Source of the DNA: a virus
Strand: one strand, 5' to 3'
Length of the DNA stretch: 64,000 bases
Virus record (IMG/VR): IMGVR_UViG_3300009184_000033
Coordinates: 62,001 to 126,000 of that record
Shown: one piece after another, positions 26,769-63,833 of the stretch
How positions within the stretch are numbered: position 1 is the stretch's first letter
Layout of the letters: each line of letters opens with the position of its first letter
Notes under the pieces: generated by a model
What the model was told of the DNA's origin: nothing
What the model saw: the letters and a program-made list of their open reading frames with translations, nothing else
Databases searched by the model: none
Program-made: the position numbers and the translations under genes

Positions 26769-26777
26769 TGACACCTC

Positions 26778-28088: not shown

Positions 28089-29257
28089 TAAAGCTTCCCT
28101 CCAAAGAATGACTTGAATGCTGGCCAGATGTCTTTCGGCGTGTTGATGTTGGCGATCTTGAAGTTGCTGTCCTTGAGCGGCTGGAGCAAGTTTCCGAGCA
28201 TCGAGTCGTTGTGAGCCCAGCGCATCTTGTCCTTCTCAGGCTCAATCTCACAGTAGCCGTACAGCTGGCACAGTGGCTTTAGCACTCTGAGTCGCTCAAG
28301 GAGCTTTGGATTGTCGTTGGAGAAGTTGTCACCGTCGCTACACTGGAACGCATAGATGTTCCAGGCGGACTGGTGGTACCGCTTCTCAATGATCTGGCTC
28401 ACCATCTCGATTGCCGGCGAGACCGTGGTGCCGCCAGAGGATCCGCGCTTGAAGAACTGGTCTTCCGTGACCTCGTAGGCGGCGGTATCATGGGCAATGA
28501 ATACGATCTCGGTGTTCTCATACCGTGAGCGTACAAAGTGGTATAGCAGGAAGAAGAAGCTCCGTGCGAGATACTTCTTCTCATCGGTCATCGAGCCTGA
28601 CACGTCCATGATGAAGAAGATCACGGCGTTCGAAGAGGGCTGTGAGACCTGCTTGATGTGCTTGTAGCGCAGGTCGTCATCATTGAACGAGAAGCTCTCC
28701 TGCTCCTCTGGATCATAAGAGCCGCTCGACTTTGCCACGTTTCGCCGGCGGAGCATGCGCTTCACCGTCTCCTTCTTATCAAGCCTGGGCCTGATTCCCT
28801 CGTTCCTGTAGCCGTGGCGCTTTGGCTTCTCGGTGATGATCTGCTTTAGGGACTTCTTCTCCAGCTCGGGAAGCTCTAGGCTATCGAAAAGGTAGTGTGC
28901 GAGCTCTTCGAGCGTGATCTCGACCTCGTACACTTCCTCACCAGCATCCTCGCCGGCCTTTCCTGGCTTTCCCTTCTGGGGCTTTCCGGCACTGCCGACC
29001 GTCTGTCCCCTGGATACGTCCTTTCCTGGAGCAGAACCGACCTGGCGATTTCCATTATCGCCATAGACGAATCGATACTCCTTGATGCCCTTCACGGGAA
29101 TCTTGATCTTCTTCTTACCGTCCTGACCTATGATCGACTCATCCGCGACTATGTCGTGGATTCCGTCCTTGATTGCCCTATCGATCTTCTCTTTGTGACG
29201 TCGGCGGTCAGAAGCCGACCTGTCAGCGGAGGTCTTGTGCTCTTTGAAAACGGACAT
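28088..29257 (-). CDS. yhbH: YhbH/YeaH family (DUF444) protein with VWA-like domain
   Basis: A 389-residue protein. The start FKEHKTSADRSASDRRRHKEK and the GIKEYRFVYGD region match the YhbH/YeaH family. The C-terminal half carries FFIMDVSGSMTDEKK, a MIDAS metal site of the von Willebrand A type, and HDTAAYEVTEDQFF with GGTTVSPA. First gene of the trio. A TGATACTTA element ends only 5 bases before the ATG and there is no ribosome site, so the transcript may be leaderless. Confidence 0.92.
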   Translation of the reverse strand: MSVFKEHKTSADRSASDRRRHKEKIDRAIKDGIHDIVADESIIGQDGKKKIKIPVKGIKEYRFVYGDNGNRQVGSAPGKDVSRGQTVGSAGKPQKGKPGKAGEDAGEEVYEVEITLEELAHYLFDSLELPELEKKSLKQIITEKPKRHGYRNEGIRPRLDKKETVKRMLRRRNVAKSSGSYDPEEQESFSFNDDDLRYKHIKQVSQPSSNAVIFFIMDVSGSMTDEKKYLARSFFFLLYHFVRSRYENTEIVFIAHDTAAYEVTEDQFFKRGSSGGTTVSPAIEMVSQIIEKRYHQSAWNIYAFQCSDGDNFSNDNPKLLERLRVLKPLCQLYGYCEIEPEKDKMRWAHNDSMLGNLLQPLKDSNFKIANINTPKDIWPAFKSFFGGKL

Positions 29258-32155: not shown

Positions 32156-32183
32156 ATTATACCACGCGTAAATCGCTTTTCAA
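32156..32183 (-). promoter_or_regulatory. Sigma-70-type promoter of the helicase operon
   Basis: On the minus strand TTGAAA (32183-32178), a 16-base spacer and TATAAT (32161-32156) stand just before the helicase start. The -10 box is perfect and the -35 box has one or two mismatches. The same two boxes and the same spacing recur at 60.1 kb. Likely read by host RNA polymerase early in infection. Confidence 0.75.
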
Positions 32184-32491
32184 CGCTCTTTTGCCATCTT
32201 ATCCCGTTTCATCTTCTCGAACTCGGTCCGGATCCACATCTTCGCTTGCTCTTCATCAGCAAACGTGCGGGTGTAGCTCTGCTTTCTGCCCTTGGTGGTG
32301 TCGGTGATGCTGGCAAACGTCTTGCCCTTCTCATCTGTGGAGATCTCGTACTCCATGTCTTCGTAGTCTTCCCAGGTGTACGGGTCAGTGTGGACGCTGT
32401 GGGCATTTCTACCGACACCGGGAGGGACCTGGGTCATCGAAGTTCCGAATCCAGTCTCAAAAAGCAGATCGACTAATTTCATTCTGTGCAT
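32180..32491 (-). CDS. Protein with capsid-targeting-like start MKLVDLLFE, 103 residues
   Basis: The first residues MHRMKLVDLLFE are nearly the same as those of the 642-residue HAD-type protein (MKRMKLVDLLFE), although the rest is unrelated. LFE followed by a small residue fits a prohead-protease site (L/I-x-E). The remaining body (YTWEDYEDMEYEIST, TFADEEQAKMWIRTEFEKMK) is a small alpha/beta domain of no known family. I infer that it is packaged in the head. Confidence 0.65.
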   Translation of the reverse strand: MHRMKLVDLLFETGFGTSMTQVPPGVGRNAHSVHTDPYTWEDYEDMEYEISTDEKGKTFASITDTTKGRKQSYTRTFADEEQAKMWIRTEFEKMKRDKMAKER

Positions 32492-32506: not shown

Positions 32507-32848
32507 CTAGTACACATCGTATTCCGTTAGCTTGTCAGCCACTTCCTCGAGGAAACTTTCAGGGATCCCAACGTAACCGATGTCCTTCGCGGCTCTCTTC
32601 AGCTTGCGAACGTTGGTCTCTGCCTTCCTGGAGGGGCGCATCTCAAGGTCCATCATGGCATCAATAAGCTCCTGCTCCAGGTCCGCCCAGTCAATCTCTT
32701 CACCCTGGGGTGTGACGTAGTACTCGGGAGGAGACATAGGAGGGGGTGCGAGCGTTGACATCTCTGAGATACGACGTGAACGTGTGAGCTTGGAAGCTTC
32801 CTCGCGGATGATCTGACGAAGTCTCGTCTCTGTGAGTCTGATTGCCAT
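32507..32848 (-). CDS. Protein with LRQIIREE-type start, 113 residues
   Basis: I start at the ATG at 32848, nine bases after AGGAG. The start RLTETRLRQIIREEASKL is one of several similar N-termini in the window. The body has a Pro-rich linker and two acidic helices (ADLEQELIDAMMDLEMRP, IPESFLEEVADKLTEY). Function unknown; probably virion-internal by analogy with T4 tagged proteins. It has its own promoter-like boxes directly after the hsp20 terminator. Confidence 0.68.
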   Translation of the reverse strand: MAIRLTETRLRQIIREEASKLTRSRRISEMSTLAPPPMSPPEYYVTPQGEEIDWADLEQELIDAMMDLEMRPSRKAETNVRKLKRAAKDIGYVGIPESFLEEVADKLTEYDVY

Positions 32849-34068: not shown

Positions 34069-34266
34069 TCAGCGCTGGCGTAAACGCCTGATGCCTTCCT
34101 TAATCCTCTTGATCGGCATGGCAAGGTTGTCTCCGCCTGCCCACAAATCTTCCTCTGCTTCGACATCGGAGGGGTGGTCGACCTCGATTGGTGTCGCCTC
34201 GCCAGAGTGCTCCTGGCTGAGAGCTTCGCGGATGATCTTACGGAGCTGACGTACGGTGACCCTCAT
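34069..34266 (-). CDS. Protein with LRKIIREAL-type start, 65 residues
   Basis: It starts MRVTVRQLRKIIREALSQE, one of the recurring capsid-targeting-like N-termini. The rest is a short acidic stretch and a basic end (PIKRIKEGIRRLRQR). Being mostly tag plus basic tail, it could be an internal head peptide. The ATG overlaps the upstream stop (ATGA). Confidence 0.65.
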   Translation of the reverse strand: MRVTVRQLRKIIREALSQEHSGEATPIEVDHPSDVEAEEDLWAGGDNLAMPIKRIKEGIRRLRQR

Positions 34267-34868
34267 CTTGAGTCCACCGCGGGAGGTCCTTCCTGCCCAT
34301 CTTCCTCTTCCTCTGGCTCTTCAGCGTCTTCGTCTTCTTCCTCGTAGTCTTCTTCCGAATCCTCGGCGTCATCATAGTCACTGATTTCGTACTCACCGGT
34401 GTCTGGGTCTTCCGTGTCTTCCTCGGAGTCCTCATAGTCCATGGAATCATCGGAGTCATCGTCCATGTCTTCCATGCCCTCACCACTCATGAGCGAAGAT
34501 AGCATGCTTGACATGTCGCCAGAGTCCATCTCGTCAGATTCCATGTCATCATCGCCATACTCGGAAGAGTAGTCTGCATCACCACCGCTTCGATCGATCT
34601 CGCCATGGAGGTAGTCTGACAGGCTCGTCATGTATGAGTCGGCGACAGCCATCTTGCTGAGAACCCAAGCTGGCAAGTCATCGCCATCCTCAAGCGCGTC
34701 GTGGAGCTTTGTTGCCCTCGCTGCGATGTTCTTCAGCTGTGTACGGGCCATGTCAGCATCACCTGAGTATCCAGGCGAGTGGTCGAAGTCCCGGCCCTGT
34801 TGGCCCTCAGCATGCTCACGAAGAGCTTTCCTGACAAAACTGCGGAGTGTGCTTATTCTAACTCTCAT
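34263..34868 (-). CDS. Acidic-tailed protein with LRSFVRKAL-type start, 201 residues
   Basis: It starts MRVRISTLRSFVRKALREH, a tag-like amphipathic helix. Residues 60-90 have LPAWVLSKMAVADSYMTSLS, a motif I know from unnamed proteins of T4-like marine phages. Residues 105-195 are extremely acidic (E, D, S, Y), as in proteins that bind basic partners or DNA-mimic tails. It is a candidate internal head protein. A TAATACTTA element lies 14 bases before the ATG. Confidence 0.68.
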   Translation of the reverse strand: MRVRISTLRSFVRKALREHAEGQQGRDFDHSPGYSGDADMARTQLKNIAARATKLHDALEDGDDLPAWVLSKMAVADSYMTSLSDYLHGEIDRSGGDADYSSEYGDDDMESDEMDSGDMSSMLSSLMSGEGMEDMDDDSDDSMDYEDSEEDTEDPDTGEYEISDYDDAEDSEEDYEEEDEDAEEPEEEEDGQEGPPAVDSR

Positions 34869-46230: not shown

Positions 46231-47724
46231 TCAGTACCGGTACTGATTCGACTTGTAGGGACCTTCGACGTCGACTCCAATGTAGCTTGCCTGACTCTCG
46301 GTAAGCTTCGTGAGCTTTGCACCGAACTTATCGAGGTGAAGTCGGGCAACCATCTCATCGAGGTGCTTCGGAAGCGTGACCACGCTCACATTGAGATCAG
46401 GAAGCTTGATGCGATTATGACCGTAGAGCTCAGAGAACTTGTGGAGGTCGATCTGGGCGAGCACCTGATTCGTGAAACTGTTGCTCATCACAAGGCTCGG
46501 GTGACCGGTCGCGCATCCAAGATTCACGAGTCGACCCTCGGCGAGGATCAGGATCTTTCGACCCGTGTCGTCAAACTCCCACTCGTGGACGCCTGGCTTC
46601 ACTTCGGTCTTAGTAACCAGCCGATCACGGCGCATGCGCTCGAGGCCTGCCATGTCGATCTCATTGTCGAAGTGGCCAATGTTACAGACGATGGCTCCGT
46701 CCTTCATCTGGGACATGTGCTCGGCGTTAATGATGTTCTTGTTCCCAGTTGCGGTCACAAAGATGTCAGTGTGCGGGAGCGCATCCTCGACCGTAGTGAC
46801 CTCGAGGCCCATCATACATGCCTGGAGCGCACAGATCGGGTCAATCTCAGTGACTGCAACTCTGGCATACTGGCCTCGGAGGCTATCTACTGAACCCTTA
46901 CCCACGTCACCGTAGCCACAGACCAGGACCCGCTTGCCTGAGACCAGCACGTCCGTAGCACGATTGATGGCATCGACGAGAGAGTGGCGGCAACCATAGA
47001 GGTTGTCGAACTTCGACTTGGTCACCGAATCGTTGACGTTGATCGCCGGGAACAAGAGGGTGCCGGCATCGCGCATCTCGTAGAGCCGGTGCACGCCAGT
47101 AGTAGTCTCTTCAGAGACACCCTTGATGTTCGCCGCCAGAGGAGTCCAGAAGTTGTTACCCTTCTCCCTGCGGACATCATGGATGAGCTGGAAGATGACG
47201 GCTTCCTCCTCCGAAGATGCAGTAGCTAGGTCTGGCAGCGTATCATTCTTCTCGTGCTGGTAGCCGAGATGAACTAGAAGGGTCGCATCACCGCCATCAT
47301 CGAGGAGGAGCGTGGGACCAGAACCATCAGGCCAGGCGAGCGCCTGAAGGGTGCACCACCAGTACTCCTCGAGGGTCTCACCAGCCCATGCAAAGACCCG
47401 GGTGCCGGTGGAAGCAATAGCTGATGCCGCGTGGTCCTGCGTCGAGAAGATGTTACAGCTCACCCACTGCACATCTGCGCCGAGGTCTTTAAGGGTCTCG
47501 ATCAGCACAGCCGTCTGGATAGTCATGTGGAGTGAACCCATGATCCGGGCGCCCTGCAGGGGCTTCTCATCCTTGAAGCGATTGCGCACGGACATGAGCC
47601 CGGGCATCTCCTTCTGGGCGAGCTCAATCTCCTTCCGACCCCACGTCGTCGTCTTGTCAGAATTGTCCTTGACTCTGCTCTGCATGCCCGAGAAAAGCTC
47701 GAGGCCAGTATTCATGAATTTCAT
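46231..47724 (-). CDS. ahcY: S-adenosylhomocysteine hydrolase
   Basis: A 497-residue protein of the long bacterial type. [24 protein letters not shown] region, [11 protein letters not shown], the NAD site [20 protein letters not shown] and the C-terminal YKSNQYRY are present. It splits S-adenosylhomocysteine to adenosine and homocysteine, removing the inhibitor of methyltransferases. The start at 47724 has GGAG and shares one base with the metK stop (TAATG). About 50 residues longer than short forms because of the insert after WCTLQAL, which is normal in this class. Confidence 0.96.
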
Positions 47725-48890
47725 TAGATCTCCAGGTAACGCTTGATTGTTGTAACCATGTCCAACTTCTCCCAAGTGAATTCGCCTCGCCCAAAGTGGC
47801 CATACGCGGCGGTGCGCTGGTATCCCGGCTTGCGCAGGTCCAGGCGCTCAATGATTCCCTTCGGCTTCAGCGGGAAGACGTCCTTGACGCAGCGAATGAT
47901 CTGATCCTCGCTTACCCTGTTGGTGCCGAAAGTATCGACCATCACGCTCACCGGTTCTGCGACGCCAATCGCATAGGAGAGCTGGACCAGCGCTCGAGAG
48001 CAGGCTCCGGAAGCGACGAGGTTCTTTGCGATGTACCGACCCATGTAAGCCGCCGAACGGTCAACCTTGCTGGGATCCTTGCCCGAGAAGGCGCCACCGC
48101 CGTGGGCACCGTGGCCACCGTAGGTGTCGACGATGATCTTGCGACCCGTGAGACCCGAGTCTCCCATCGGTCCGCCGATCTCAAACTTGCCCGTGGGGTT
48201 GACATAGAACTTCGTCTTGTTGTCGATCATGTCAGAGGGCAGGTACCGCTTGATGAGACCAGAGACGACCTGCTCATAGATCTCGCCGTGGGCACGGGGC
48301 TCGTGCTGGGTAGACAGGACGACGGTATCGATGCGTGAGATCCTCGAGTCTCGGTACTCCACCGTCACCTGGGCCTTGCTGTCCGGACGGACCCAGGACC
48401 AGTCGCTGTCGGTCTTGCGGAGCTTCGAGAGGTTCCGCATCAGGTCGTGGCTCCACTGGATCGACGCCGGCATGAGCTCTGGCGTCTCAAGGACTGCGTA
48501 GCCGAACATCATGCCCTGGTCGCCAGCACCCATCTCAGAGAACAGGCCAGAGCCCTCATCGACGCCCTGCGCAATATCGGGAGACTGCTCCTCGAGGGCG
48601 ACCATGACGGCGCAGGTGTTGCCGTCGAATCCCTTGTCAGAGTGGTTGAATCCGATGTCGTTGATCGTCTTCCTCACCACCTTTGCGATGTCGACCTTGA
48701 CTTCAGACGGCACGGTGATCTCTCCAGCTACAACGACCAAGCCGGTCTTCACGAGGGTCTCGCAGGCCACCCTCGAGTTAGGATACTGCTGGAGGTAAGA
48801 ATCCAACACAGCGTCAGAGATCTGGTCACAGATCTTATCTGGGTGCCCCTCTGATACGGACTCAGATGTAAACAGGTAGTTCTTCGGCAT
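47724..48890 (-). CDS. metK: S-adenosylmethionine synthetase
   Basis: A 388-residue protein, typical length. [52 protein letters not shown] and [17 protein letters not shown] are the ATP/methionine motifs. It makes SAM from ATP and methionine. The start ATG at 48890 follows AGGAG; an upstream in-frame region is excluded. Directly coupled to ahcY, so SAM supply and SAH removal are co-expressed. Confidence 0.97.
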
Positions 48891-48891
48891 G

Positions 48892-49302
48892 TTACCACTC
48901 CTCCCCAAGACCGACCCAGTCCTTGTACTTCTCTTCTCCGCCGCGGGTCTTCCAGTCAGAGTCGATTGTGAGCTTCGAGCTGATTCCACCTCGAGGATTG
49001 AACACCATCACGACCCGGAGCCGGTCTGGCTCGTACGCTGCCATGAGATCGTCGTAGACGACATTGATCAGCCGCTCATAGGAGATGATCTTCTCGCGGA
49101 ACTGGTGGAGATAGTACTTCAGAGACTTGAGCTCCACCACCTTGGAATTCGGATAGATGGTGATGAAGAGGTCTGCGAAATCTGGCTGGTCCTTGACACC
49201 GAGAAACGTTACCTCGGGTGACTTGATCTTGACCTCGTAGCCCTTGCTCGAGGGATTGGGAATTGCCTTCAGGATAGAAGGGTCGCTCCAGACTCTTGAC
49301 AA
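48892..49302 (-). CDS. QueF-like T-fold protein without the catalytic cysteine
   Basis: A 136-residue protein. ELKSLKYY (residues 58-65) is the QueF NADPH motif; QPDFA (39-43) and FNPRGGIS (101-108) also match QueF. The residue at the Cys position, five before QPDF, is Leu in this protein ([10 protein letters not shown]), so the normal nitrile reductase chemistry is not expected. The start is TTG at 49302, four bases after AAGGAGG; the upstream GTG has no ribosome site. It might bind preQ0 or a pterin-like ligand. It is not followed by other queuosine genes in this window. Confidence 0.75.
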
Positions 49303-50972: not shown

Positions 50973-51603
50973 CTGCACAATCAAGTCTGGGGAAATTGTC
51001 AGCCTCGAAGACCTGAGGCTGAATGACCCCAACTGCACAATCGAGGCTGGGGTCATAATCAGGCCACCTTTAGCTCCAGAAGTTGAGTCTGTCGATAAGA
51101 AGGCAGAAACAAAGCCTGCCAAAGTCAAGAAACAGGCAGAAATCAAAAAGACAGAAGCAAAGCCTGAAGAAGTTGTTGCAAATGTAGAGGCGCCGAAAGT
51201 GGCGCCACAGAAGAAAGTGGTCACCAAAGAGGTGATCGAAGTGCCGCAGCCTGTCATCAACAATGGGCTGTCTTCAAGTGAAATTGCTGCCGGTGCGGCG
51301 GTGCTTGGTGTTGCCGCCATAGGTGCCGCAGCGGCAACTTCTGCCGCAGGAGGAATTTCATCGATACAAGCCAAGATCGCATCGATGTTCGGCTCTAAGG
51401 GCGCAATTGCTGGCGCGGCAGCGGTAACCGCTGGTACGATCGTGGCAGTCAAGGCACTGGAATCAAAGATGGGCAAGCTTGAGCAGGATATGTCAAAAAT
51501 GAAAGAGGAGGTCGGTGGTGCCGCCTCCTCTATCGATAAGATTGACGAGCTACTTGACCGGCTCAGCAGAGACGGTAACGACAAACTCGACCCGCCTGTT
51601 TAG
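50965..51603 (+). CDS. Hypothetical protein with basic repeats and Gly/Ala-rich membrane segments, 212 residues
   Basis: Starts MPDCTIKSGEIVSLEDLRLN with a DCTI/NCTI repeat. Residues 45-85 are Lys/Val/Glu-rich (KKQAEIKKTEAKPEEVV). Residues 105-160 have two Ala/Gly-rich hydrophobic stretches (AAGAAVLGVAAIGAAAA, GAIAGAAAVTAGTIVAVKAL), then a coiled coil. Could belong with the two genes before it as an envelope-acting set. Its end overlaps the OmpA-like gene on the other strand by 54 bases. Confidence 0.55.
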   Translation: MPDCTIKSGEIVSLEDLRLNDPNCTIEAGVIIRPPLAPEVESVDKKAETKPAKVKKQAEIKKTEAKPEEVVANVEAPKVAPQKKVVTKEVIEVPQPVINNGLSSSEIAAGAAVLGVAAIGAAAATSAAGGISSIQAKIASMFGSKGAIAGAAAVTAGTIVAVKALESKMGKLEQDMSKMKEEVGGAASSIDKIDELLDRLSRDGNDKLDPPV

Positions 51604-54600
51604 GGCCTTGCCAGCTGGCGTTCCAGAGGAATCGATCGGAGACTCATCACCCTTGCCCTCGATCGAGATCCTCTCGGTCGAGATTCCTTTTCCAGCGAGA
51701 TAGTCGGCGGCAACCTTTGCCCTCTCGTATGAGAGCTCGTCAGGATGCTTGTACTCAATCTCAGAGGAATCAGCATAACCAACTACCTTGACTCCAAATC
51801 CAGGTCGAGAGTTCAAGATAACCCAAACGCCATCGAGTGTTGCTTGTCCCCTGGCGTTCAGCTTGGAATCTCCAGCCTTGAAACCTATGCCGATCTCTTG
51901 CTTCGGAGCCGTGACCGCGTCTGGCGCAGCTGGAACAACTATCACTATCGGCTGCTCGTACACGGTGACTGACTTGCAGTCGCATGCTGGAGCTGGTGGG
52001 GGTATGACCAGAGCTGGGGCTGGAATTACTTCAGGTTTATCATCAGAGCCAAAGGTCAACTGAGCTGATAGTTGCCAGTCGGGGTCTCCTGGCTGGCGGA
52101 TGATTCCCTTGCTTCCCGCGACTCCCACGGAGAAGTTTCCTATTGTCCAGTCGAGTGATGTCCCCACAAAGAGCGAGGAAACTGGTCTCTCACCGATGTT
52201 GTAGTAGGCTTGCGTATCGACGCCAACCGTGAAGTTACCAAGACCGTAGGCAGCTAGAGCGTTAAGGTAAGGACCGTCTCCGAGCTCGTAACCCTCGAGA
52301 TCAATTTCTGGGTAAACAAGGTAACCACCACCAGCTGTAAAGCTTAGATCCCCGACCTGTCCCTCGGCACCGGCCTCGACCTGCATCACTGTGTTCGGGT
52401 GCGCGACCCCGAGCCCAACGCCAGTGGGAACAACGACCGCGAGATCGCCGTAAGCTCCCCAGCCGTCCTCTCCGAATGCCTTTGTATATCCACGAGCTCC
52501 ACCCCAGGCGTCTCCGATTCTTGGTACACCATCCTGCATAATAGATCCCGGGAGACCCACATCGAAGGAGAAGTGATCGAAAGTGTACCTATTTGTCGTC
52601 CAGCCCCAGAAGGTGTCACCGATGACGACCGTCTCAGTGCCGTCTGGATTCACATAGGAGAGCGGGTCAGTAACGATACCGCCGACCACTGCCGATTCCT
52701 CACCCTTGAATACCGAGGCTCCCCTCGGAGGAAGAGGAACCACGCTCATCTCTGGGACCTCACCGCCTGAAGCGCCCATCAATAGTGGAGTACCCAGGAT
52801 AGCAGCCATGAGACCGAGGCCACGTCGCCTCACCGAGGCGAGGAGGGCAGCTCCAAGCAAGATGATTCCACCTGATGGTCCACCACCTGTCGTTGAGCAT
52901 CCGCCAGGAACGTACTTACCCACAGCTGGCTTGACTGGATCTTCTACGGGGTCTGTGTCGGTATCAACTGCTGTGTCGATGCCTGAATCAATCCCCGAGT
53001 CTATTCCGGAATCGATCCCTGAGTCGATGGCAGTATCGACTGCTGTGTCACCAGTATCTACTGGTCTGTCGTCCACTGGGTCGCATGCGTCTCCGATTCC
53101 GTCACCGTCAATATCCGTCTGATCATTAGGCTCACCGAAGCAGTTGTCGCTGTCGTCGGCGTATGTGTCACCGTCAGCATCAGAGTCACAGAAATCTCCA
53201 ATACCGTCGTGATCGAAGTCTAGCTGCTCGTCGTTCGGATAGTCAGGGCAGTTGTCGGCAAGTCCGCAGACTCCGTCAGAATCGACATCGTTCGATGGAT
53301 CTCCGAGGCAAGTGTCCGATCCATCGCAGACTCCATCACCATCGGCGTCGTTGAACGGATCGTATGGGCATGGGTCTATGTCAGCGCACTTGTCGTCAGA
53401 GTCGACGTCATCTTCCGGATCAAGGGGGCATGCGTCGCATCCGTCAGGGACAGTGTCGAGGTCAGAGTCGACAAGGTCATCAGAGCCTGCGCAGATGTCG
53501 ATATCTCCACAGACTCCGTCCGCGTCCGAATCATTCTCAGCATCAGCTGGGCAGATGTCGACGTCTCCACAGTTTCCGTCCTCATCAGCATCGTTCATGG
53601 GATCAAGCGGGCAAGTGTCTGCCGATTCGCAGAGTCCATCGCTGTCACGGTCATCGAGCGCGTCCGATGGACAGGCGTCGACGTCTCCGCACACCCCATC
53701 ATCATCTGCATCGTTCAGCTCATCGAGCGGACAGGCATCACAGTCATCAGAAAGACCATCAGAGTCTACGTCCGCGACGTCGTCGAAGCCAGGGCAGATG
53801 TCTGCAGAGTCGCAGGAGCCGTCTCCATCAGAGTCATCTGCTGAGTCGGTCGGGCAGGTGTCGCATCCGTTCGGAACAGAGTCGCCGTCGACGTCAAGCA
53901 GGTCATCGGCGCCTGGGCAAATGTCGTCCGAATCACAAGAACCGTCAGCGTCAGAGTCATCAAGGGCGTCGAATGGACAGGTGTCACAACCATCTGGGAC
54001 AAAGTCCAAGTCGGTGTCCATCAGGTCATCAGACCCAGGACAGGCCTCGTTGTTTCCGCAGACAGTGTCCTCATCCTCATCGTCGAGAGGATCGTAGATG
54101 CAGATATCACATCCGTCTGGAGTTCCATCTGAGTCAGAGTCTACGATATCGCTAAACCCTGGGCATGTGTCGAAGTCACCGCAGATTCCATCTAGGTCTT
54201 CGTCATCGAGAGGATCATTAGGGCAAACATCGCATCCGTCAGGGGTAAGATCTGAATCTGCGTCAGCAAGGTCATCGTATCCAGGGCAAATGTCGGTATC
54301 GCCACAGATACCATCAGCATCCGCATCGTTTTCAGGATCGGTCGGGCAAGTGTCCTCAGTGTCAGGTATGCCGTCAGAATCTGCATCTGGAATCACGGGT
54401 GCCTCGGCACATTCCGTCGCAGCGGTGATCGCAGAGTCATCAAGTGCATAGACAACCCTGAATGTCTCAGACTGTCCAGGTATCATATCACCTATGCGGA
54501 CTGCAAGAGAGATTGCCTGATCTGCGGTGGTTGTGGATCCAACTGATGAGTTTAGTCCTGAGCCGTTCCAGATATTGGAACCGTCTGTGTTGCTGAATCC

Positions 54601-55332
54601 GCCGTGCGTGACCTTTGCGCGTGAGTCAGAGGCAAGAAGGTAGAGGTCAGACCCATCGCCTCCCGTGGCCTTCACCTCAGCGAGATCAGTTGAGGCATTT
54701 GGCTGGGAGATGATGGTGTTGGTCGTGCTGTAACCGTAACCAGTCATCACAGCGTTGTCAGGATCTACGTTCCTGAACCAGTACACGTCCGACAGGGTGC
54801 TCGATCCGTTGTTGGTGAGTGTGACGGTCATGACGATGTAGACGCCGTCATTCACAACGCCGTACTGCGTCTCAATACCAAGGTCTCCCCTGTTTCCGGT
54901 CCATGTCGCGGCCCCGCCGAGATTCCCACAGATGTCGACTTCACAGGCAGGGTCACCGAGGCTGCCTACAATGTTCTGGCTTCCGTTGAAGTTTGTGTAG
55001 GAAGTGCCGTTGACCTCGACTCCCCATCCCTCGAGAGGCGAACCGGGAGAGAAGAAGTCACCGTAGAATGATGCCCATCCGTTGGCTTGCGGGTTCGCGA
55101 CAAAACCCATCTGGCCCGTGTTGGAGCGATAGTGCCAGCCAGCAGGATACCCTCCCTCGCCAAAGGCACCTTCACTTCCAAGACCAAGCTCAACGTAGGA
55201 GTTGCGGATGAAGGCTGCGGACCCAGGATCGCTTACCTCACAGAATCCGGAGGCGTGTGCTACTCTGGGAGCTGAAGCGAACGCTGCTAAAAGAACAGGG
55301 AATAGAATTTGATTTAGACATAGTTTGCGCAT
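51550..55332 (-). CDS. Giant secreted protein: TSP3 repeats, MYXO-CTERM-like segment, barrel and OmpA domain (1260 residues)
   Basis: Signal peptide at 1-28 (ILFPVLLAAFASAPRVAHA). Residues 30-310 are a beta-rich secreted domain; about 315-745 carry thrombospondin type 3 calcium repeats; about 752-797 repeat DSGI and DT; about 808-835 hold GGCSTTGGG, a hydrophobic helix and RRRG, a MYXO-CTERM-like pattern. It continues, after a second signal-like LMAAILGTPLLMG, into a barrel-like region (848-1097) and an OmpA peptidoglycan-binding domain (1144-1260; LSYERAKVAADYLAGKG, LNRRVEF). It looks like two host proteins fused in frame. Outer membrane role likely. Probably acquired from a Myxococcota host. 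Confidence 0.85.
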   Translation of the reverse strand: MRKLCLNQILFPVLLAAFASAPRVAHASGFCEVSDPGSAAFIRNSYVELGLGSEGAFGEGGYPAGWHYRSNTGQMGFVANPQANGWASFYGDFFSPGSPLEGWGVEVNGTSYTNFNGSQNIVGSLGDPACEVDICGNLGGAATWTGNRGDLGIETQYGVVNDGVYIVMTVTLTNNGSSTLSDVYWFRNVDPDNAVMTGYGYSTTNTIISQPNASTDLAEVKATGGDGSDLYLLASDSRAKVTHGGFSNTDGSNIWNGSGLNSSVGSTTTADQAISLAVRIGDMIPGQSETFRVVYALDDSAITAATECAEAPVIPDADSDGIPDTEDTCPTDPENDADADGICGDTDICPGYDDLADADSDLTPDGCDVCPNDPLDDEDLDGICGDFDTCPGFSDIVDSDSDGTPDGCDICIYDPLDDEDEDTVCGNNEACPGSDDLMDTDLDFVPDGCDTCPFDALDDSDADGSCDSDDICPGADDLLDVDGDSVPNGCDTCPTDSADDSDGDGSCDSADICPGFDDVADVDSDGLSDDCDACPLDELNDADDDGVCGDVDACPSDALDDRDSDGLCESADTCPLDPMNDADEDGNCGDVDICPADAENDSDADGVCGDIDICAGSDDLVDSDLDTVPDGCDACPLDPEDDVDSDDKCADIDPCPYDPFNDADGDGVCDGSDTCLGDPSNDVDSDGVCGLADNCPDYPNDEQLDFDHDGIGDFCDSDADGDTYADDSDNCFGEPNDQTDIDGDGIGDACDPVDDRPVDTGDTAVDTAIDSGIDSGIDSGIDSGIDTAVDTDTDPVEDPVKPAVGKYVPGGCSTTGGGPSGGIILLGAALLASVRRRGLGLMAAILGTPLLMGASGGEVPEMSVVPLPPRGASVFKGEESAVVGGIVTDPLSYVNPDGTETVVIGDTFWGWTTNRYTFDHFSFDVGLPGSIMQDGVPRIGDAWGGARGYTKAFGEDGWGAYGDLAVVVPTGVGLGVAHPNTVMQVEAGAEGQVGDLSFTAGGGYLVYPEIDLEGYELGDGPYLNALAAYGLGNFTVGVDTQAYYNIGERPVSSLFVGTSLDWTIGNFSVGVAGSKGIIRQPGDPDWQLSAQLTFGSDDKPEVIPAPALVIPPPAPACDCKSVTVYEQPIVIVVPAAPDAVTAPKQEIGIGFKAGDSKLNARGQATLDGVWVILNSRPGFGVKVVGYADSSEIEYKHPDELSYERAKVAADYLAGKGISTERISIEGKGDESPIDSSGTPAGKALNRRVEFVVTVSAEPVK
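53095..54390 (-). repeat. Thrombospondin type 3 repeat array
   Basis: More than a dozen units of the type D-x-D-x-DG(I/V)xDxxDxCP, each 20-36 residues, coding for Asp-rich calcium loops. The DNA is repetitive but diverged, so it is a protein repeat array and not a DNA satellite. The plus strand gives long false reading frames here. Confidence 0.85.
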
Positions 55333-56045: not shown

Positions 56046-57974
56046 TCAGTACCCGTCCTGCTCTTGAGCATGCTCCAGCGCCGACTCAAGATCTTCCGCA
56101 ATCCGATTTGCATCCTGCTCGTCGATGTGCTCGCAGTCCCTGATTATCGAGATTGCTTCCCTGGTGAGAGGGATGATCATCGCGGTGGTGTAGTTGGGTC
56201 TCTCACGGGCGCTGTCTATCATGTCCATCAGCTCAAAGAGCGCGCCAAGCGCCACTGAGTCCTCTGGACAGCCGGCGTCCTCTAGATCCATCTCCGCCAT
56301 CTCAAGGGCGGCAAGTAGCTCGGATGTCTGCATCTGCTCGAGGTCCCTTCCTGCGAACATCTCTCCCGCCTCGGTGAGGCTCTTGCCGCGAACTCTTGAT
56401 TCGACCACGCCGCGCGGATCCAAGATCGCGAGGACGCGCCCAGTGGTGATCTTGCCACGGCTCCAGTTGTCGAAGATCTTCTTGAAGGTCTGCCTGGAGT
56501 GCGTGACGCTCTCTTCCCAGATGTCACGGTTTTCTGGTGATAGAGTTTGCTCGAGCTCGTCGAACTTGGACATCACTTTGTGCCTGAGCTTATTGAAAGC
56601 TCTTCCGGCCGGAGTCTGTATGTCACGTGCTAGATCAAAGTTAGTGTCCATGCTTGCATGCCTGTTCTGGGCGAGCTTGTAGTTCTCCCAGATCGCCTTG
56701 TACTCTGGTGTCATGTGAAGCGTGTTGAGGAACCTCTGATAGTCCTCTATCACCTCGTCGTCGCCAGCATTAATGAGCCGCTGCGCCTGGTTGGGTCCAA
56801 AGATCTCCTTGAAGATTCCGATCAGACCTGGGATGACAGACCATGGAGAGTTGAGAAATGAGTCAATTATTCCGTACTCGCGGAGCAATTTGCCTCGAAC
56901 AGTTGCCATGACCGCAGACTCACCAATGTCAAGGGTCTTTGGATAGCCCTTCTGACCCGGCTTCTTTCTTGGTAAGCCCTTCTTCCTGCGCTGGCGGATA
57001 TTGTGCCAGAGACCCTTTGGCTTCGCTTCGTTCAGTGGCTCAAGCCCAGCAAGCTTGTGCCAGCGCTCGAGGATGGGATCTTTGTCGTATCTACGACCTG
57101 AATTCTCTTGGCTCTTTGTGGTCTCTTCTTCAGCTGGCTCGAATGACTTGTTTGGTGTAGAAGGATTTGCCTCATTGTGAGCAAACTCACCTGGACCATA
57201 AATGTGCAGTTCTGCTGGAATCTGCTTTGCCATGTTCTTTTCTACGTCATTGGTGTTCTTACTGAGATCATCATAGAAGTGAACTTCCTCTGGCTTTTGC
57301 GCGGCTTTGTCAACAAAGTGATCTTTTATCTTCTTGCCCTTGTTTCCGCCTGAGACGCCGAAGACTCCAGAGTTTGGCTTCGCACCCTGCTTCTCCAAGA
57401 ACTCTTCCATGTCTTCAGCGTTCGTGGCGGTCAGCTTGTTGCCGTGAATGTCCTCCACCTGTCCACTGGCGGTCCTGGCAGTTACAACTGCCGTCTTGGA
57501 GCCAGCCGCGTTCGCCTTCTTGAGCTTATCAATGGTGGACGAGATTGGCTTGGTGGTATCCAGGTTTGTGCTGCTCGAGGGAGTGTAGTCTACCAACACC
57601 TCGTCTTGTCCAGAGGCTCCAGTTGGAACTCCGAATCCAGTCGCAAACTGTCTATCTGATGGTATCTGCGACTGAATCTTGGCAAGAGCAGCAGAATTCA
57701 CGTAGGCGGCATATGCTCCGTCTTTTTCGGAGATCGGTACGATGCCCGGATCAAGCAGCGCATTCGTGCTGACGCCGAGGCTCTTGAGCCAACCCTCGAC
57801 CTCCTGCTTAGACTTGTGGACTGGCTTTCCGTCTCGGTACAACATTACGGCATTCGCATTTGTAGTGACGCCAAGCGTGTCGTCAAAATCGAACAAGTGA
57901 ACTTGCTTCTCTGGAGGAGCGTCACCTGGTACTGCATCTTCGAACAATAGATCGACGAGTTTCATCCGCTTCAT
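56046..57974 (-). CDS. HAD-type polyprotein with MKLVDLLFE tag (642 residues)
   Basis: Starts MKRMKLVDLLFEDAVPG, the tag shared with the 103-residue gene. Residues 25-285 are HAD-like: FDFDDTLGV (29-33 core), TAVVTARTAS and VHFYDDLSKNTNDV. About 301-312 is ILERWHKLAGL, also at the end of the 841-residue protein, then GLWHNIRQRRKKGLPRKKPG, a basic phage motif. The rest is helical and acidic. It could be a packaged polyprotein cut at LFE and near ERWHKLAGL. The ATG overlaps the pilin-like stop. Confidence 0.72.
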   Translation of the reverse strand: MKRMKLVDLLFEDAVPGDAPPEKQVHLFDFDDTLGVTTNANAVMLYRDGKPVHKSKQEVEGWLKSLGVSTNALLDPGIVPISEKDGAYAAYVNSAALAKIQSQIPSDRQFATGFGVPTGASGQDEVLVDYTPSSSTNLDTTKPISSTIDKLKKANAAGSKTAVVTARTASGQVEDIHGNKLTATNAEDMEEFLEKQGAKPNSGVFGVSGGNKGKKIKDHFVDKAAQKPEEVHFYDDLSKNTNDVEKNMAKQIPAELHIYGPGEFAHNEANPSTPNKSFEPAEEETTKSQENSGRRYDKDPILERWHKLAGLEPLNEAKPKGLWHNIRQRRKKGLPRKKPGQKGYPKTLDIGESAVMATVRGKLLREYGIIDSFLNSPWSVIPGLIGIFKEIFGPNQAQRLINAGDDEVIEDYQRFLNTLHMTPEYKAIWENYKLAQNRHASMDTNFDLARDIQTPAGRAFNKLRHKVMSKFDELEQTLSPENRDIWEESVTHSRQTFKKIFDNWSRGKITTGRVLAILDPRGVVESRVRGKSLTEAGEMFAGRDLEQMQTSELLAALEMAEMDLEDAGCPEDSVALGALFELMDMIDSARERPNYTTAMIIPLTREAISIIRDCEHIDEQDANRIAEDLESALEHAQEQDGY

Positions 57975-58177
57975 CTTGTTGTACCTACCCTTCCAATTTT
58001 TCCATCTGAGAGTATCTTCTTGATATCCTTACCAAGATCGAGAACGCCCTGCTTGAACGGCTCGATGAATACATATGCTGCCGCCACGATGGCGATGACG
58101 ATCACGCTGATGAGGAGCATGTACTCGACAGTGGACTGTCCCTCGTCATCTGCAATGAGCTGCTTCAGTAGTTCCAT
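57971..58177 (-). CDS. Flp/type IVb pilin-like protein, 68 residues
   Basis: MELLKQLIADDEGQSTVEYM followed by LLISVIVIAIVAAAYVFI and a charged tail. GQSTVEYMLLI is the prepilin hallmark: cleavage after Gly and the Glu five residues on, then a long hydrophobic helix, as in Flp pilins. A phage-encoded pilin is unexpected. GAGG precedes the ATG, and TATAAGTATC lies before that. Coupled to the HAD-type gene. Confidence 0.8.
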   Translation of the reverse strand: MELLKQLIADDEGQSTVEYMLLISVIVIAIVAAAYVFIEPFKQGVLDLGKDIKKILSDGKIGRVGTTR

Positions 58178-58202
58178 GTGATACCTCAGATACTTATAAC
58201 TA

Positions 58203-58511
58203 TCAGCCTGATTTGACTGTAACGAGGTGACCTTGCTCAAAGTGCCACAGGTCTCCCCTGACAAGCACCAGCCAAATCTTGAGCTCACTGAAGGCAAACG
58301 GTCCATCCACCACGGTTCCAACGTCCTGCTCGGTGGTCCTACAGACATCTTTAAAGAGACGCGAAATGGGATCGACTTCCCTAGTGCCATCGGCGCACAG
58401 GGTGTCGACCCCAGTCTCTATCGGCACAAACCTTACCAGGTCGCCGATCCTGATTTCTGCGCGGTGCTCTACTTCTGCTTGTTGCACGTGTCGCACAGTG
58501 TCCGGATCCAT
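58203..58511 (-). CDS. GDLV-family small protein
   Basis: The core EIRIGDLVRFVPIETG, a middle loop and WLVLVRGDLWHFEQGHLVTV match the small barrel family. The start is unclear: the frame to 58511 overlaps the next gene by 43 bases; a GTG at codon 9 would cut this to 18. No ribosome site decides. Confidence 0.5.
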   Translation of the reverse strand: MDPDTVRHVQQAEVEHRAEIRIGDLVRFVPIETGVDTLCADGTREVDPISRLFKDVCRTTEQDVGTVVDGPFAFSELKIWLVLVRGDLWHFEQGHLVTVKSG

Positions 58512-60104: not shown

Positions 60105-61130
60105 TTATGCAAGTACCGAGGCGTCTACACCAACGTCTGCATCTGCCCTATCGTACTTCTTCTTGATCCAGTCAGTTATTATCTTGTTGATGTTGATGTC
60201 TGCGATCGATTTATCTGGGCTGTCTTTAGCGATCTTCCTCAGCTCTCCAACATACCACTTGATGTACTCAGCTTCGAGCTTGTCATCAAGGACATCCTCG
60301 AGGTCATCATTGAGCTGTAGAGCCTTTCCAAACTTCCCAAGCTGATCATTGTCTGGTCCCTTTGCGATCTTCTCGGCAAAGTCAGCAAACTTCTCGTCGG
60401 GTGACTGTTGGGACTTCCTAAACGAGGCAAACAGAGACTTGATCTTGCCTCCGACCTCGACAGCCTTCTTGATCATCTGGTAGCCAGCAACAAGCTTGTC
60501 GCCATATGGGATGAGCTTAACGGCTTGCTCTACGAGCTTCTTGATTGCCTGCTTCAGCGCCGATGTGAAGACGGTGTCGACTAGCCCCTTGAACGTCTCG
60601 TTGCTTGTGTACAGGTCCTTGAGTCCCTTGAAGTGGTCTAGAACATCAGTTATCTGCTCTTTCTTGTTACCCCAAAGCCACTGGAGAGACTTCTTGATAT
60701 CGTCGTACTTCTTCTTAGCCTCTCTCCAGGCGCTCTGTAAATCGACGCCGTACTTCTTCAGGTCAGTGAACCATTCCAGCATCTCCTTCACGTCGTCCTT
60801 GTTAGAAGAAGCTAGCTCTGCCGCCTCTTTGGACTTTTTGATCATGGCGCTGATGTTCTCTGGCGCATATTCTTCGGCAAACTCAAGTGCTTCCTTGATG
60901 AAGTTTGCCATGGAATCATCCATGTCGCTAACGGTCTCGTCAAAGGAGGCTAGCAAATCTCCGACAGTCATGCCAGCCTCGAGCATCAGCATGTCGGTCT
61001 CGTGTTCAAGAATGACGATTCGAAGGTCTTCAGATCTCAGCACCTCTCTCACCAGGCGTGAGCTTCGGTGTGCTGGGCGAGAGTCCATAAGTTGCTCACG
61101 GATGAGAGCGCGAAGGTACTTCTCTTCCAC
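60105..61130 (-). CDS. Helical protein with LRALIREQL-type start, 341 residues
   Basis: Starts MEEKYLRALIREQLMDSR and has a second tag-like SSRLVREVLRSE at residues 23-35. The rest is long charged helices (AMIKKSKEAAELASSN, LDHFKGLKDLYTSN, DKLVAGYQMIKKAVEVGG) without enzyme motifs. Likely internal head or scaffold-like protein. Confidence 0.65.
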   Translation of the reverse strand: MEEKYLRALIREQLMDSRPAHRSSRLVREVLRSEDLRIVILEHETDMLMLEAGMTVGDLLASFDETVSDMDDSMANFIKEALEFAEEYAPENISAMIKKSKEAAELASSNKDDVKEMLEWFTDLKKYGVDLQSAWREAKKKYDDIKKSLQWLWGNKKEQITDVLDHFKGLKDLYTSNETFKGLVDTVFTSALKQAIKKLVEQAVKLIPYGDKLVAGYQMIKKAVEVGGKIKSLFASFRKSQQSPDEKFADFAEKIAKGPDNDQLGKFGKALQLNDDLEDVLDDKLEAEYIKWYVGELRKIAKDSPDKSIADININKIITDWIKKKYDRADADVGVDASVLA

Positions 61131-61137
61131 GATTCTC

Positions 61138-62376
61138 TTACCTCTTCTTCTTTGGCGGCAGGCTGACGCCTTTCCGGCGGCTGTATTTTATGGTGTAGTC
61201 GTCCTGCCACTCAGCGTCATAGAGCTGTGCTCTCATGGTTTTTATTGGATCATGTCCACGAACTGAACTCCATTTGCGGGGAGTCATATTCTTTAAGAGC
61301 TCAGGGTTGTCATTACCATAGTAGCCAAAATATGGCTCGCCAGAGAACTTGATGGCGCCAGACTCAGAGTCTCCCGTGACCTCCTTGTCAGACCATGGCA
61401 AGTCAAAATACACGTCTTCTGGATTCGACCTGTTGTATGAGTCTGCAAATGATGCAATCTCTCGCGGGACATCGCCCCACATCTGGTACACCTTGCAGGT
61501 GAGCTGTGCTCCAGATTTCACGATGACCTCTCCCTCACCGCCGTGCTCTGAGTTGACTTCGATGTTGTCGAAATCCACGATGGTGTCCTCTGGATTGACT
61601 ACAGCACCGATTATGTAGCCACCTTTCTCTGCGTAATTCTTACCAGACTTTGCTCTGGCGGCCCACTGCATCATTGCCTCGTACTCAGATCCGGCTGATG
61701 ACATCGTGGCAAAACGCTCTGCGACGCTCTTTGATTTCGTCCACGCGCTGGGCTTATCCTGCTGGAATGGGAACGGCCTCTTGCCATCTCCGTACTTTTC
61801 TGCAAAGTCGAGGAGGTCCACGACCTCCCTGAATCTGATGCCACGGTAGAGGACAGTGCGCTCCTGCATGCGGTACGGCTCGAGGTCAATTACGTACTCT
61901 GGCCTCGGCTCTGGCATGCCATAGCCGTTGGTGTTCTTCCACTGCCTGAGCCACTTCTTAGATCCGAGAGCAGGAGCACCACGACCCTTCTTCTTGCCGA
62001 CGGTGGAGCGGATCTTCAGCGCGCGCTTGATGATCGGCAACTTGTCATAGTTGTTCCTGACAAAGCCAAGCGGGTCCAGACTGCGATTCCATTCTATGCG
62101 AACTGCGACGTCAGGCTCGTTCATCAGCGCCTTGGCTTCCTGGCTGTTCTTGAAAGCCTCGAAAGCCGGCGCAAATTTCGCTGCCAGCTCTTTGTTGGAA
62201 TCTTCGAACTGTGGCGCCCACATGTGGCCTGCATCCACTCTCGTCAACATAGCCTTGAGCGCGGTAGCAGCCTCACCCGATCCGAACATCAGGTCGTAGA
62301 CTTCGCCGGCAGAGAGACCCTTGCTCTCTAACATGATCCTGTGGAGGATTCTCTCTATTAGCGTCTCTCTCATCAT
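61138..62376 (-). CDS. ADP-ribosyltransferase-like protein with capsid-targeting-like start (412 residues)
   Basis: Residues 2-17 (MRETLIERILHRIMLES) form a tag helix ending IMLE|S, an (L/I)xE site. Residues 170-290 have the R-S-E order of ADP-ribosyltransferases: LYRGIRF (R178), SAWTKSKSVAERFA (S210, S215) and HGGEGEVIV (E281-G-E283, an ExE motif). It would move ADP-ribose from NAD+ to arginine or a similar residue. T4 Alt is a packaged enzyme of this kind. The start ATGATG overlaps the upstream stop. Confidence 0.75.
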   Translation of the reverse strand: MMRETLIERILHRIMLESKGLSAGEVYDLMFGSGEAATALKAMLTRVDAGHMWAPQFEDSNKELAAKFAPAFEAFKNSQEAKALMNEPDVAVRIEWNRSLDPLGFVRNNYDKLPIIKRALKIRSTVGKKKGRGAPALGSKKWLRQWKNTNGYGMPEPRPEYVIDLEPYRMQERTVLYRGIRFREVVDLLDFAEKYGDGKRPFPFQQDKPSAWTKSKSVAERFATMSSAGSEYEAMMQWAARAKSGKNYAEKGGYIIGAVVNPEDTIVDFDNIEVNSEHGGEGEVIVKSGAQLTCKVYQMWGDVPREIASFADSYNRSNPEDVYFDLPWSDKEVTGDSESGAIKFSGEPYFGYYGNDNPELLKNMTPRKWSSVRGHDPIKTMRAQLYDAEWQDDYTIKYSRRKGVSLPPKKKR

Positions 62377-62654
62377 GATGCCTCTGGTGGCATCACATGG
62401 ACGCCGCCCGGAACTTTGTTGATGGTCCAGCCACGTTGGGTGAGCTGATTCACGAGAATTGGATTTGGGAGATCGATCGTGTATCCGCCAGTCTCTGCGA
62501 GATTCACAGCCTCGATAGCGCCTGCTGGATCCCACTGGGAGTATGCTTCGCGAAGGATGCCAAGGGTCCTGTCGGGATTGGGGTTGTATTCTCCATAAGA
62601 ACCCTCGCCAAGCAGGAATCCACGTGTCATGTCGCGGAACTGGTTGCTGTTCAT
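62373..62654 (-). CDS. Small protein with FRDMTRGFLLGE start, 93 residues
   Basis: ATG at 62654 after GAGGATAAG. The start NQFRDMTRGFLLGEGSYGEY has LLGE|G as a protease-type site. The C-terminal part (LVNQLTQRGWTINKVPGGVH) is a small alpha/beta domain. No known family. Coupled to the ADP-ribosyltransferase. Confidence 0.6.
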   Translation of the reverse strand: MNSNQFRDMTRGFLLGEGSYGEYNPNPDRTLGILREAYSQWDPAGAIEAVNLAETGGYTIDLPNPILVNQLTQRGWTINKVPGGVHVMPPEAS

Positions 62655-62661
62655 CTTATCC

Positions 62662-63177
62662 TCACTTTTTCTTCTTTGACTTCTTGACGACAGCCCAGGA
62701 CTTTGATGGGTTCGCAGAGTTGACCCTCGCCATGGCCCACTGGTGCTGTGACATTCCCTTCCGTGAGCCAGACCTCGCCCATGCCGCAAGTCCCTTCTCA
62801 TACTCAGTGTACACAGAACCTGGGGTCAGACCGCGTTTCTCTGCCTTCTTCTTCAGGGTCTCTTTGGTCTTCTTGGAGAGGGCTTCTACTACGATCTCTT
62901 GGATGAGATCAAGCAAGACCTCATGCCCCTCTTTCTGCGAGTCAGGTCGCGGCTTTGACTCGAACCCAGGCTTCTCGCGCTCCTTCTTCTCCATGCGCTC
63001 ACGGCGAGCATACGCCCGCTTGATCCTCTCTGGGTCACCAGACTCCAGATCAGCCTTCGTCATGTCAAGCTGCTTGTCCCGCTTGCTGCCCTCAGGAGCA
63101 TCATACTGCGGAGGATTTTTGGCCTCCAGCAGTTCTTCCTGTATGATCTCTCGCAGCCTGCTCTCTGTGATTTTCAT
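62662..63177 (-). CDS. Basic protein with LREIIQEELLE start, 171 residues
   Basis: Starts MKITESRLREIIQEELLEAK, a tag helix with LLE|A. Residues 110-171 have KRGLTPGSVYTEYEKGLAAW, RKGMSQHQWAMARVNSANPS and a poly-Lys end, a basic domain I know from marine phage hypotheticals. A packaged DNA-associated role is plausible. Confidence 0.68.
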   Translation of the reverse strand: MKITESRLREIIQEELLEAKNPPQYDAPEGSKRDKQLDMTKADLESGDPERIKRAYARRERMEKKEREKPGFESKPRPDSQKEGHEVLLDLIQEIVVEALSKKTKETLKKKAEKRGLTPGSVYTEYEKGLAAWARSGSRKGMSQHQWAMARVNSANPSKSWAVVKKSKKKK

Positions 63178-63188
63178 CGAGATTCCAC

Positions 63189-63833
63189 TCAGCCCGATGT
63201 ATCGATTTCATAGTAGGCGTAGATGCGACCTGAATCGGGGTCTCGGTACATCTCGAACTTCCACATAGGGGCGCCAGAGAACCTGCTCTGCAGCCACTTC
63301 ACCGCCTCTTCATCAGAGAGACCCTCTGGCGCGAAGGCAGTGCCGATATCGGTGTGACCATAGGTGGGACGACCGGCGCCGAGTCCATTCGGTGACATGT
63401 TCCTGATGATCATGCCGCCGACACGGAGCTTGTCATCAGCGCGCCGCTGCTCCTCAGCGCGGGCATTTTCTGCCGAAGTGTGGGAACTCACCGCATCGAT
63501 GAAGTCCTGGCCTGAGGGACAAGTCCCAGCCTTCGACATCTCACCAGCCTTCTGGACGTGGAATGCGATCGCATTGCGAGAGATGCCAGTGGCCTGGGAG
63601 ATCTGGTCGCAGATCTCGCCCTTGTTTCCACCGGCTCCGAAGACCAGACCTGCGCCCATCTCGCACATCATGTCCCAGGCCTTTGCGAGGTCTTGGTGGA
63701 GCTCCGTGTCGTTCGGGTGGAGCTTGAACTGTCGCAGCCAGCTTCGCGTGGTCATGTTTTTCTCGAGGTCCATGGGCGACTCCATGATAGTGCGCCTGAT
63801 GATCTGGCGAAGTTGCGACTCTGTGATTCTCAT
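63189..63833 (-). CDS. Protein with LRQIIRRTIMES start, 214 residues
   Basis: Starts MRITESQLRQIIRRTIMES, close to the upstream neighbour, with IME|S as a protease-type site. The body has WLRQFKLHPNDTELHQDLAK and a C-terminal KWLQSRFSGAPMWKFEMYRD domain. No family recognised. GGAG lies before the ATG. Confidence 0.66.
   Translation of the reverse strand: MRITESQLRQIIRRTIMESPMDLEKNMTTRSWLRQFKLHPNDTELHQDLAKAWDMMCEMGAGLVFGAGGNKGEICDQISQATGISRNAIAFHVQKAGEMSKAGTCPSGQDFIDAVSSHTSAENARAEEQRRADDKLRVGGMIIRNMSPNGLGAGRPTYGHTDIGTAFAPEGLSDEEAVKWLQSRFSGAPMWKFEMYRDPDSGRIYAYYEIDTSG

Follow-up and report, generated by a model that had tools for sequence, protein, structure and literature searches.

Does positions 61138-62376 of the window, that is, of the 64,000-nucleotide stretch analysed here (bases 62001-126000 of the virus record IMGVR_UViG_3300009184_000033, which totals 132,044 bases), encode an ADP-ribosyltransferase (ART) that travels inside the phage head and acts on the host once it is injected? 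The plus strand of this region is riddled with stop codons and the open reading frame (ORF) lies on the minus strand, its ATG overlapping the stop codon of the upstream gene (ATGA); a second contig, IMGVR_UViG_3300009180_005974, carries a 100% identical copy. We consider it likely that the product, whose N-terminus reads MMRETLIERILHRIMLES, is a head-packaged and injected mono-ADP-ribosyltransferase of the R-S-E (arginine, serine, glutamate) type, which bears a capsid-targeting propeptide of ~17 residues and would modify host proteins early. The relevant features, in window positions, are the following.

61138..62376, minus strand: ART gene, 412 amino acids, ATG at 62376 and stop at 61138 (ORF and sequence).
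62326..62376, minus strand: N-terminal tag, residues 1-17, MMRETLIERILHRIMLE, a predicted capsid-targeting propeptide cut after E17 (tag-matrix rank and gapless likeness to other tags).
61900..62325, minus strand: residues 18-159, a linker or N-terminal domain predicted to be mostly helical (single-sequence model, at low confidence).
61480..61899, minus strand: predicted ART catalytic domain, residues 160-299 (AlphaFold2 with an alignment, and PDB fold matches).
61843..61845, minus strand: R178 in L176-Y-R178-G, the first ART motif (shared by the homologue L196 and the family of tagged ARTs).
61732..61749, minus strand: S210-A-W-T213-K-S215, the second ART motif (alignments, with Ala211 in the invariant-Ser column).
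61528..61536, minus strand: E281-G-E283(-V-I-V), the third ART motif, with E283 the predicted catalytic Glu (aligned with the E-x-E of T4 Alt by hhalign, and with L196).

All the residues that an earlier note on this DNA had named, that is, an N-terminal helix ending in IMLES, R178, S210/S215 and E281-G-E283, are present on the minus strand. The R-S-E order that it read from them was borne out for R178 and the E-x-E motif, but S210/S215 are not quite in catalytic register, since the corresponding motif of the relatives, S-W-T/S, has an invariant Ser that aligns with Ala211, to which S210 is adjacent.

No match to the protein was obtained in Pfam, PHROGs, NCBIfam or a PDB sequence search, and tblastn against cultured phages gave no credible relative, so that more remote evidence was sought. 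Searching the whole records of 50 tag-bearing or ART-like contigs returned the gene's own copy only, and genome-collection scans with a two-sequence alignment and with a DNA motif returned no relatives. PDB sequence matches to nanobodies were dismissed as chance. When the protein is shuffled 20,000 times, a loose R-S-E pattern arises in 57 cases; the ORF at L163:9973-10896 also fits it, yet is without ART appearance. The strict pattern YRG..W[ST]..A..F[AS]..E.E[VI], in turn, was found in 16 of the 6,807 ORFs from all loci collected, every one of them being the protein itself or a related member of a family of tagged ARTs.

When ten T4 Alt-type ART domains were made into a profile and scanned against 703 segments (600 decoys, 100 shuffles and three chosen ones), the protein ranked first and was aligned exactly on the E motif, with a low probability (16%). 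Ranks 2, 4 and 7 were taken by tagged proteins from other contigs that show the full order YRG, S-W-T/S...A..F and E-x-E, and that belong to the tagged ART family of other phages (alignment A1, with further members later). Against a profile of eleven tagged ARTs, the protein scored 13.1 bits and was the top non-member of the ORFs searched, with T4 ModB behind it at 8.0 bits; none of 2,000 shuffles of the protein reached 13.1 bits, the best attaining 6.5. Furthermore, a DNA scan for W-T-K-S...A..F-A yielded a homologue (L196:2640-3593; BLASTP 2e-8) that keeps the R, WTKSK and E-x-E and has a short N-terminus, MKLSQILSE before the cut and A after it. Of the 83 contigs hit in a DNA scan for GEGEVIV, almost all are chance matches, but L069 and L096, which are also in this set, show the R-S-E order in full.

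The catalytic domain was modelled with AlphaFold2 from an alignment (A5) assembled by hand from fragments cut around the motifs; MAFFT had put the E motif of the tagged ARTs onto PEDTIVDF, and splitting into fragments gave the corrected alignment. For residues 160-299 the mean predicted local distance difference test (pLDDT) score was 77.8 and the predicted template modelling (pTM) score 0.66, with the Arg (strand 15-22), the S-A-W-T stretch and E-V-I-V (strand 124-127) all on strands of the domain model. The first 29 Foldseek matches to the PDB were all ARTs (best probability 0.99, E 0.0045), headed by the Rhs ART effectors TreX and TreTu and followed by ART toxin subunits, ParT and NatT, while six matches to viral models fell below 0.001, a named phage ADP-ribosylase standing at rank 31. 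The comparison with known ART folds that the earlier note had proposed thus gave a predicted ART core, and the ART reading is supported by the L196 homologue, the profile rankings, the domain model and the fold search alike. An ART fold is very probable. Of the features of the R-S-E clade, the protein shows Arg on the first core strand (L-Y-R178-G), E-x-E before a core strand and the predicted ART fold itself; a motif in the place of the S-T-S type motif of the second core strand is present as S210-A-W-T213, but with Ala211 where the invariant Ser is expected. The gene probably encodes a putative mono-ADP-ribosyltransferase of that type. In this clade E-x-E, as in Alt, points to arginine as the acceptor, and the sequence suggests arginine acceptors for this protein as well.

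The same genome encodes a Gp23 capsid protein (E 5e-80), a Peptidase_S77 prohead protease of the gp21 family (E 8e-26), and a T4-type portal and terminase. In T4, internal proteins are made with N-terminal propeptides of 10-19 residues that gp21 cuts at L/I-X-E, and Alt is both packaged and cut (PMC9026906; PMC9958956). A tag of ~18 residues, with the consensus M[RK]ITESxLRxIIRx..[IL]xE before the cut and S/A after it, is common to genes next to the ART gene and to many other phages, and it ends in the cleavage motif of the protease. Of 89 non-redundant proteins selected by the first twelve residues of the tag and nothing else, 82% have [ILVM]xE at residues 13-22, as against 7-17% in later control windows, and that E is followed by S, A, N or G in 54%, as against 1-7%. 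The S77 protease was found in 17 of 48 tag-found contigs but in only 2 of 47 contigs found by an unrelated motif (Fisher 2e-4), and in contigs of at least 80 kilobases (kb) in 9 of 11 versus 1 of 7, controls in both comparisons not being habitat-matched; with a second tag set it was present in 4 of 7 large contigs. The tag family thus shares the features of the T4-type capsid-targeting class: a short N-terminal peptide, on unrelated proteins, with an L/I-X-E end, accompanied by a gp21-family protease. It is hardly found in the cultured-phage collection, and no description of it was found in the open papers searched.

When the 3,004 starts of this genome were scored with a tag matrix derived exclusively from other phages, nine strong tags (34-54 bits) stood out, the majority in a series of genes surrounding the ART gene and lying upstream of it. 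The ART protein's own tag is closer to those of other ARTs (MTQLLRSLIRQVLLE, followed after the cut by S, and MNDSTILQLIRHILLTE, followed by A) than to the ITES type, and it resembles without gaps that of a neighbour, MRITESQLRQIIRRTIMES. From the T4-type head, the gp21-family protease and a tag family whose protease motif stands far above background, we infer packaging, and the tag proposed in the earlier note is supported in that sense. Under this reading, the first ~17 residues would bind the prohead core and the gp21-family protease would remove them after E17; the mature enzyme would be sealed in the head, enter the host along with the DNA, and ADP-ribosylate host proteins as infection begins, ahead of phage gene expression. 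Each of these steps, from recruitment, cleavage and packaging to injection and activity, is an inferred one for this protein.

ARTs with such tags recur in other phages. A record of 257 kb (G005, IMGVR_UViG_3300011113_000805, loci L188, L192 and L193) encodes ten full-length tagged ARTs in three clusters, several of which end in C-terminal LPxGLxVxGxL repeats; beyond it, one record has two tagged ARTs and others have one each. The genome studied here has a second one, MRITESQFRRIIREETEDME, at L007:956-1634 (G000:126455-127133), just outside the window end, which is broken because its E motif lies in another reading frame, and the second contig likewise holds it as two-frame pieces. These occurrences suggest that the tag is a label which can be reused to deliver injected proteins that modify the host. 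It is somewhat probable that uncultured T4-like phages use a distinct address-and-cleavage tag of ~18 residues to load a modular, expandable protein set into the head for injection, and that ARTs, as many as ten in a phage, recur among this cargo, the product of this gene included.

Two further ART-like genes were noticed. In a 527-kb record with an S77 protease (G049), L069:1424-2545 combines a T4-like N-terminus, MTFKEYMTLFEQ, with a C-terminal ART-like R-S-E order. In Microcystis phage Mel-JY01, the closest cultured relative by portal, the head-module 'hypothetical' protein WWT39312 (L147:9341-10507), encoded between the prohead protease and capsid genes, shows YRA, YVSTT and ESEIILPR, which is the Alt pattern.

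Several points weigh against a packaged, active ART. Its own tag is divergent, scoring 4.8 bits with the matrix (rank 15 of 3,004 starts), and the last site of the tag is M-L-E, not strictly L/I-X-E. None of the PDB fold matches reaches an E-value of 0.001, and the domain model is not fully independent of the motifs, its alignment having been built from fragments around them; single-sequence AlphaFold2 failed (pLDDT 34.6), which was not taken as evidence against the ART reading. Activity could moreover be reduced or lost because Ala211 replaces the invariant Ser. Finally, no phage of this group was found to have virion proteomics or enzyme data.

Among the alternatives, the one that fares best is that the injected ART serves counter-defence, ADP-ribosylating a host immune protein instead of RNA polymerase, as AcrIF11 does to CRISPR complexes. 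The tagged ARTs of related phages are amplified and divergent, with ten in one genome, as an arms race predicts, and T4 internal proteins using the same loading route are anti-restriction proteins (PMC9026906; PMC3012670); AcrIF11 is itself a phage ART (PMC12421852). In the present case, however, neither a defence gene nor an interaction or a host is known, and several housekeeping targets would equally explain the amplification; this is a real possibility that falls short of probable. The earlier note had supposed that the enzyme does as Alt does and modifies host RNA polymerase; a strict functional analogue of Alt would do so to favour phage promoters. The shared fold, the E-x-E motif, the T4-like phage and the probably shared entry route agree with this, but the alignment with Alt is confined to the E motif and no result addresses the target. 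Ten tagged ARTs in one phage argue for several or fast-changing targets, and because these ARTs are amplified and divergent, counter-defence or several targets fit better than one fixed target such as RNA polymerase; the proposed target is not supported, and a strict analogue seems unlikely.

It is more doubtful still that the ART is made in the infected cell and left unpackaged, its N-terminal helix being due to chance or serving another purpose. The weak membership of its tag in the tag family is what this would explain, but the gene lies within a series of tagged genes, its homologues also bear tags, and the tags of most members end at a protease-like site. Slightly less probable again is an inactive ART relative retained as an internal head protein. 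In the alignments of the tagged ARTs, L196 and A5, Ala211 occupies the invariant-Ser column, as such a protein might be expected to show; yet R178, W212, T213 and the two glutamates are retained, S210 and T213 are close by, and this gene is intact whereas the genome's other ART is broken. That the protein is a non-ART orphan with chance motifs would fit its lack of family-library matches, but the homologue, the profile ranking, the model and the fold search concur in making this very improbable.

A packaged and injected ART, then, is most readily compared with T4 Alt (NP_049811, the packaged RNA polymerase ADP-ribosyltransferase), with which it shares the R-S-E order with E-x-E, a T4-type head together with a protease of the gp21 family, a short N-terminal propeptide (predicted here) and a single-gene ART. 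It differs in its length (412 versus 682 amino acids), in its different and longer tag, and in an S motif that reads S-A-W-T and not STS. Among phage records, tblastn gave no match of the protein to Alt, and hhalign spans 18 columns only, aligning the E motif alone, in agreement with the earlier claim that there is no likeness to Alt outside the motifs; by sequence, the protein is outside the Alt family, though of the Alt kind. The T4 proteins IPI-IPIII with their capsid targeting sequence likewise have an N-terminal propeptide of 10-19 residues ending in L/I-X-E and common to many unrelated proteins, but the tag here is of a different family (M[RK]ITESxLRxIIR...), with about nine strong cases in the genome. 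The tagged ARTs L188, L189, L190, L192 and L193, as well as L196, resemble the protein in the tag, YRG, S-W-T/S...A..F and E-x-E; L196 is a true homologue, whereas the other five are linked to the protein solely by a weak, top-ranking profile match, and the repeats that end some of the tagged ARTs also set these apart. The ART domains of phage polyvalent proteins (PMC5512222) are also thought to be injected, but these are large multidomain proteins, whereas here a single tagged protein would take the head-core route.

The packaged proteins of T4 have been known for decades, and the injected set of environmental phages has been unreadable from sequence because the cargo proteins are orphans. 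If the present reading is true, a tag tied to a gp21-type protease would reveal injected proteins of phages that have never been grown, and genes of a class so far labelled 'hypothetical' would become candidates for effectors acting in the first minute. Likewise, the recurrence of ARTs, with ten of them in a single genome, would mean that ADP-ribosylation is a major and diverse means of early takeover or counter-defence beyond the T-even phages.

The other tagged or tag-like genes of the window that were recorded are given below.

62373..62654, minus strand: upstream gene, the N-terminus of which, MNSNQFRDMTRGFLLGEG, likewise has an L-x-E-like end (sequence; no family match).
62662..63177, minus strand: tagged neighbour MKITESRLREIIQEELLEA, 171 amino acids, DUF5824 (family search and tag matrix).
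63189..63833, minus strand: the tagged neighbour that begins with the tag resembling that of the ART protein, 214 amino acids (tag matrix; function unassigned).
60105..61130, minus strand: downstream gene, N-terminus MEEKYLRALIREQLMDS, tag-like by eye and not selected by the tag matrix (sequence).
32507..32848, minus strand: tagged gene MAIRLTETRLRQIIREEASKLTRSRRISE, 113 amino acids (tag matrix).
34263..34868, minus strand: weakly tagged gene MRVRISTLRSFVRKALREHAE, 201 amino acids (tag matrix rank 10).

Tag-like N-terminal helices with moderate scores (ranks 11-13 of 3,004) were also seen in two small proteins adjoining the prohead protease gene (L003:13607-13879 and L003:13944-14411). The proteins encoded at 56046-57974 and 32180-32491 both start near MKLVDLLFE, which is T4-like as a tag, shorter, and has L-F-E at its end; the former has a weak HAD/DUF2608 match. 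RNA-family and promoter scans gave no informative result. Elsewhere in the window, genes for a PrkA kinase, SpoVR and DUF444 (YeaH-like) lie side by side at 24828-29257, like the bacterial stress-response set, and at 46231-48989 an S-adenosylmethionine (SAM) synthetase adjoins an S-adenosylhomocysteine hydrolase, forming a phage SAM cycle. The protein encoded at 57971-58390 is pilin-like by a weak match and has a stretch resembling a class III signal, and near it, at 51550-55332, a protein of 1,260 amino acids combines thrombospondin repeats with a C-terminal OmpA domain.
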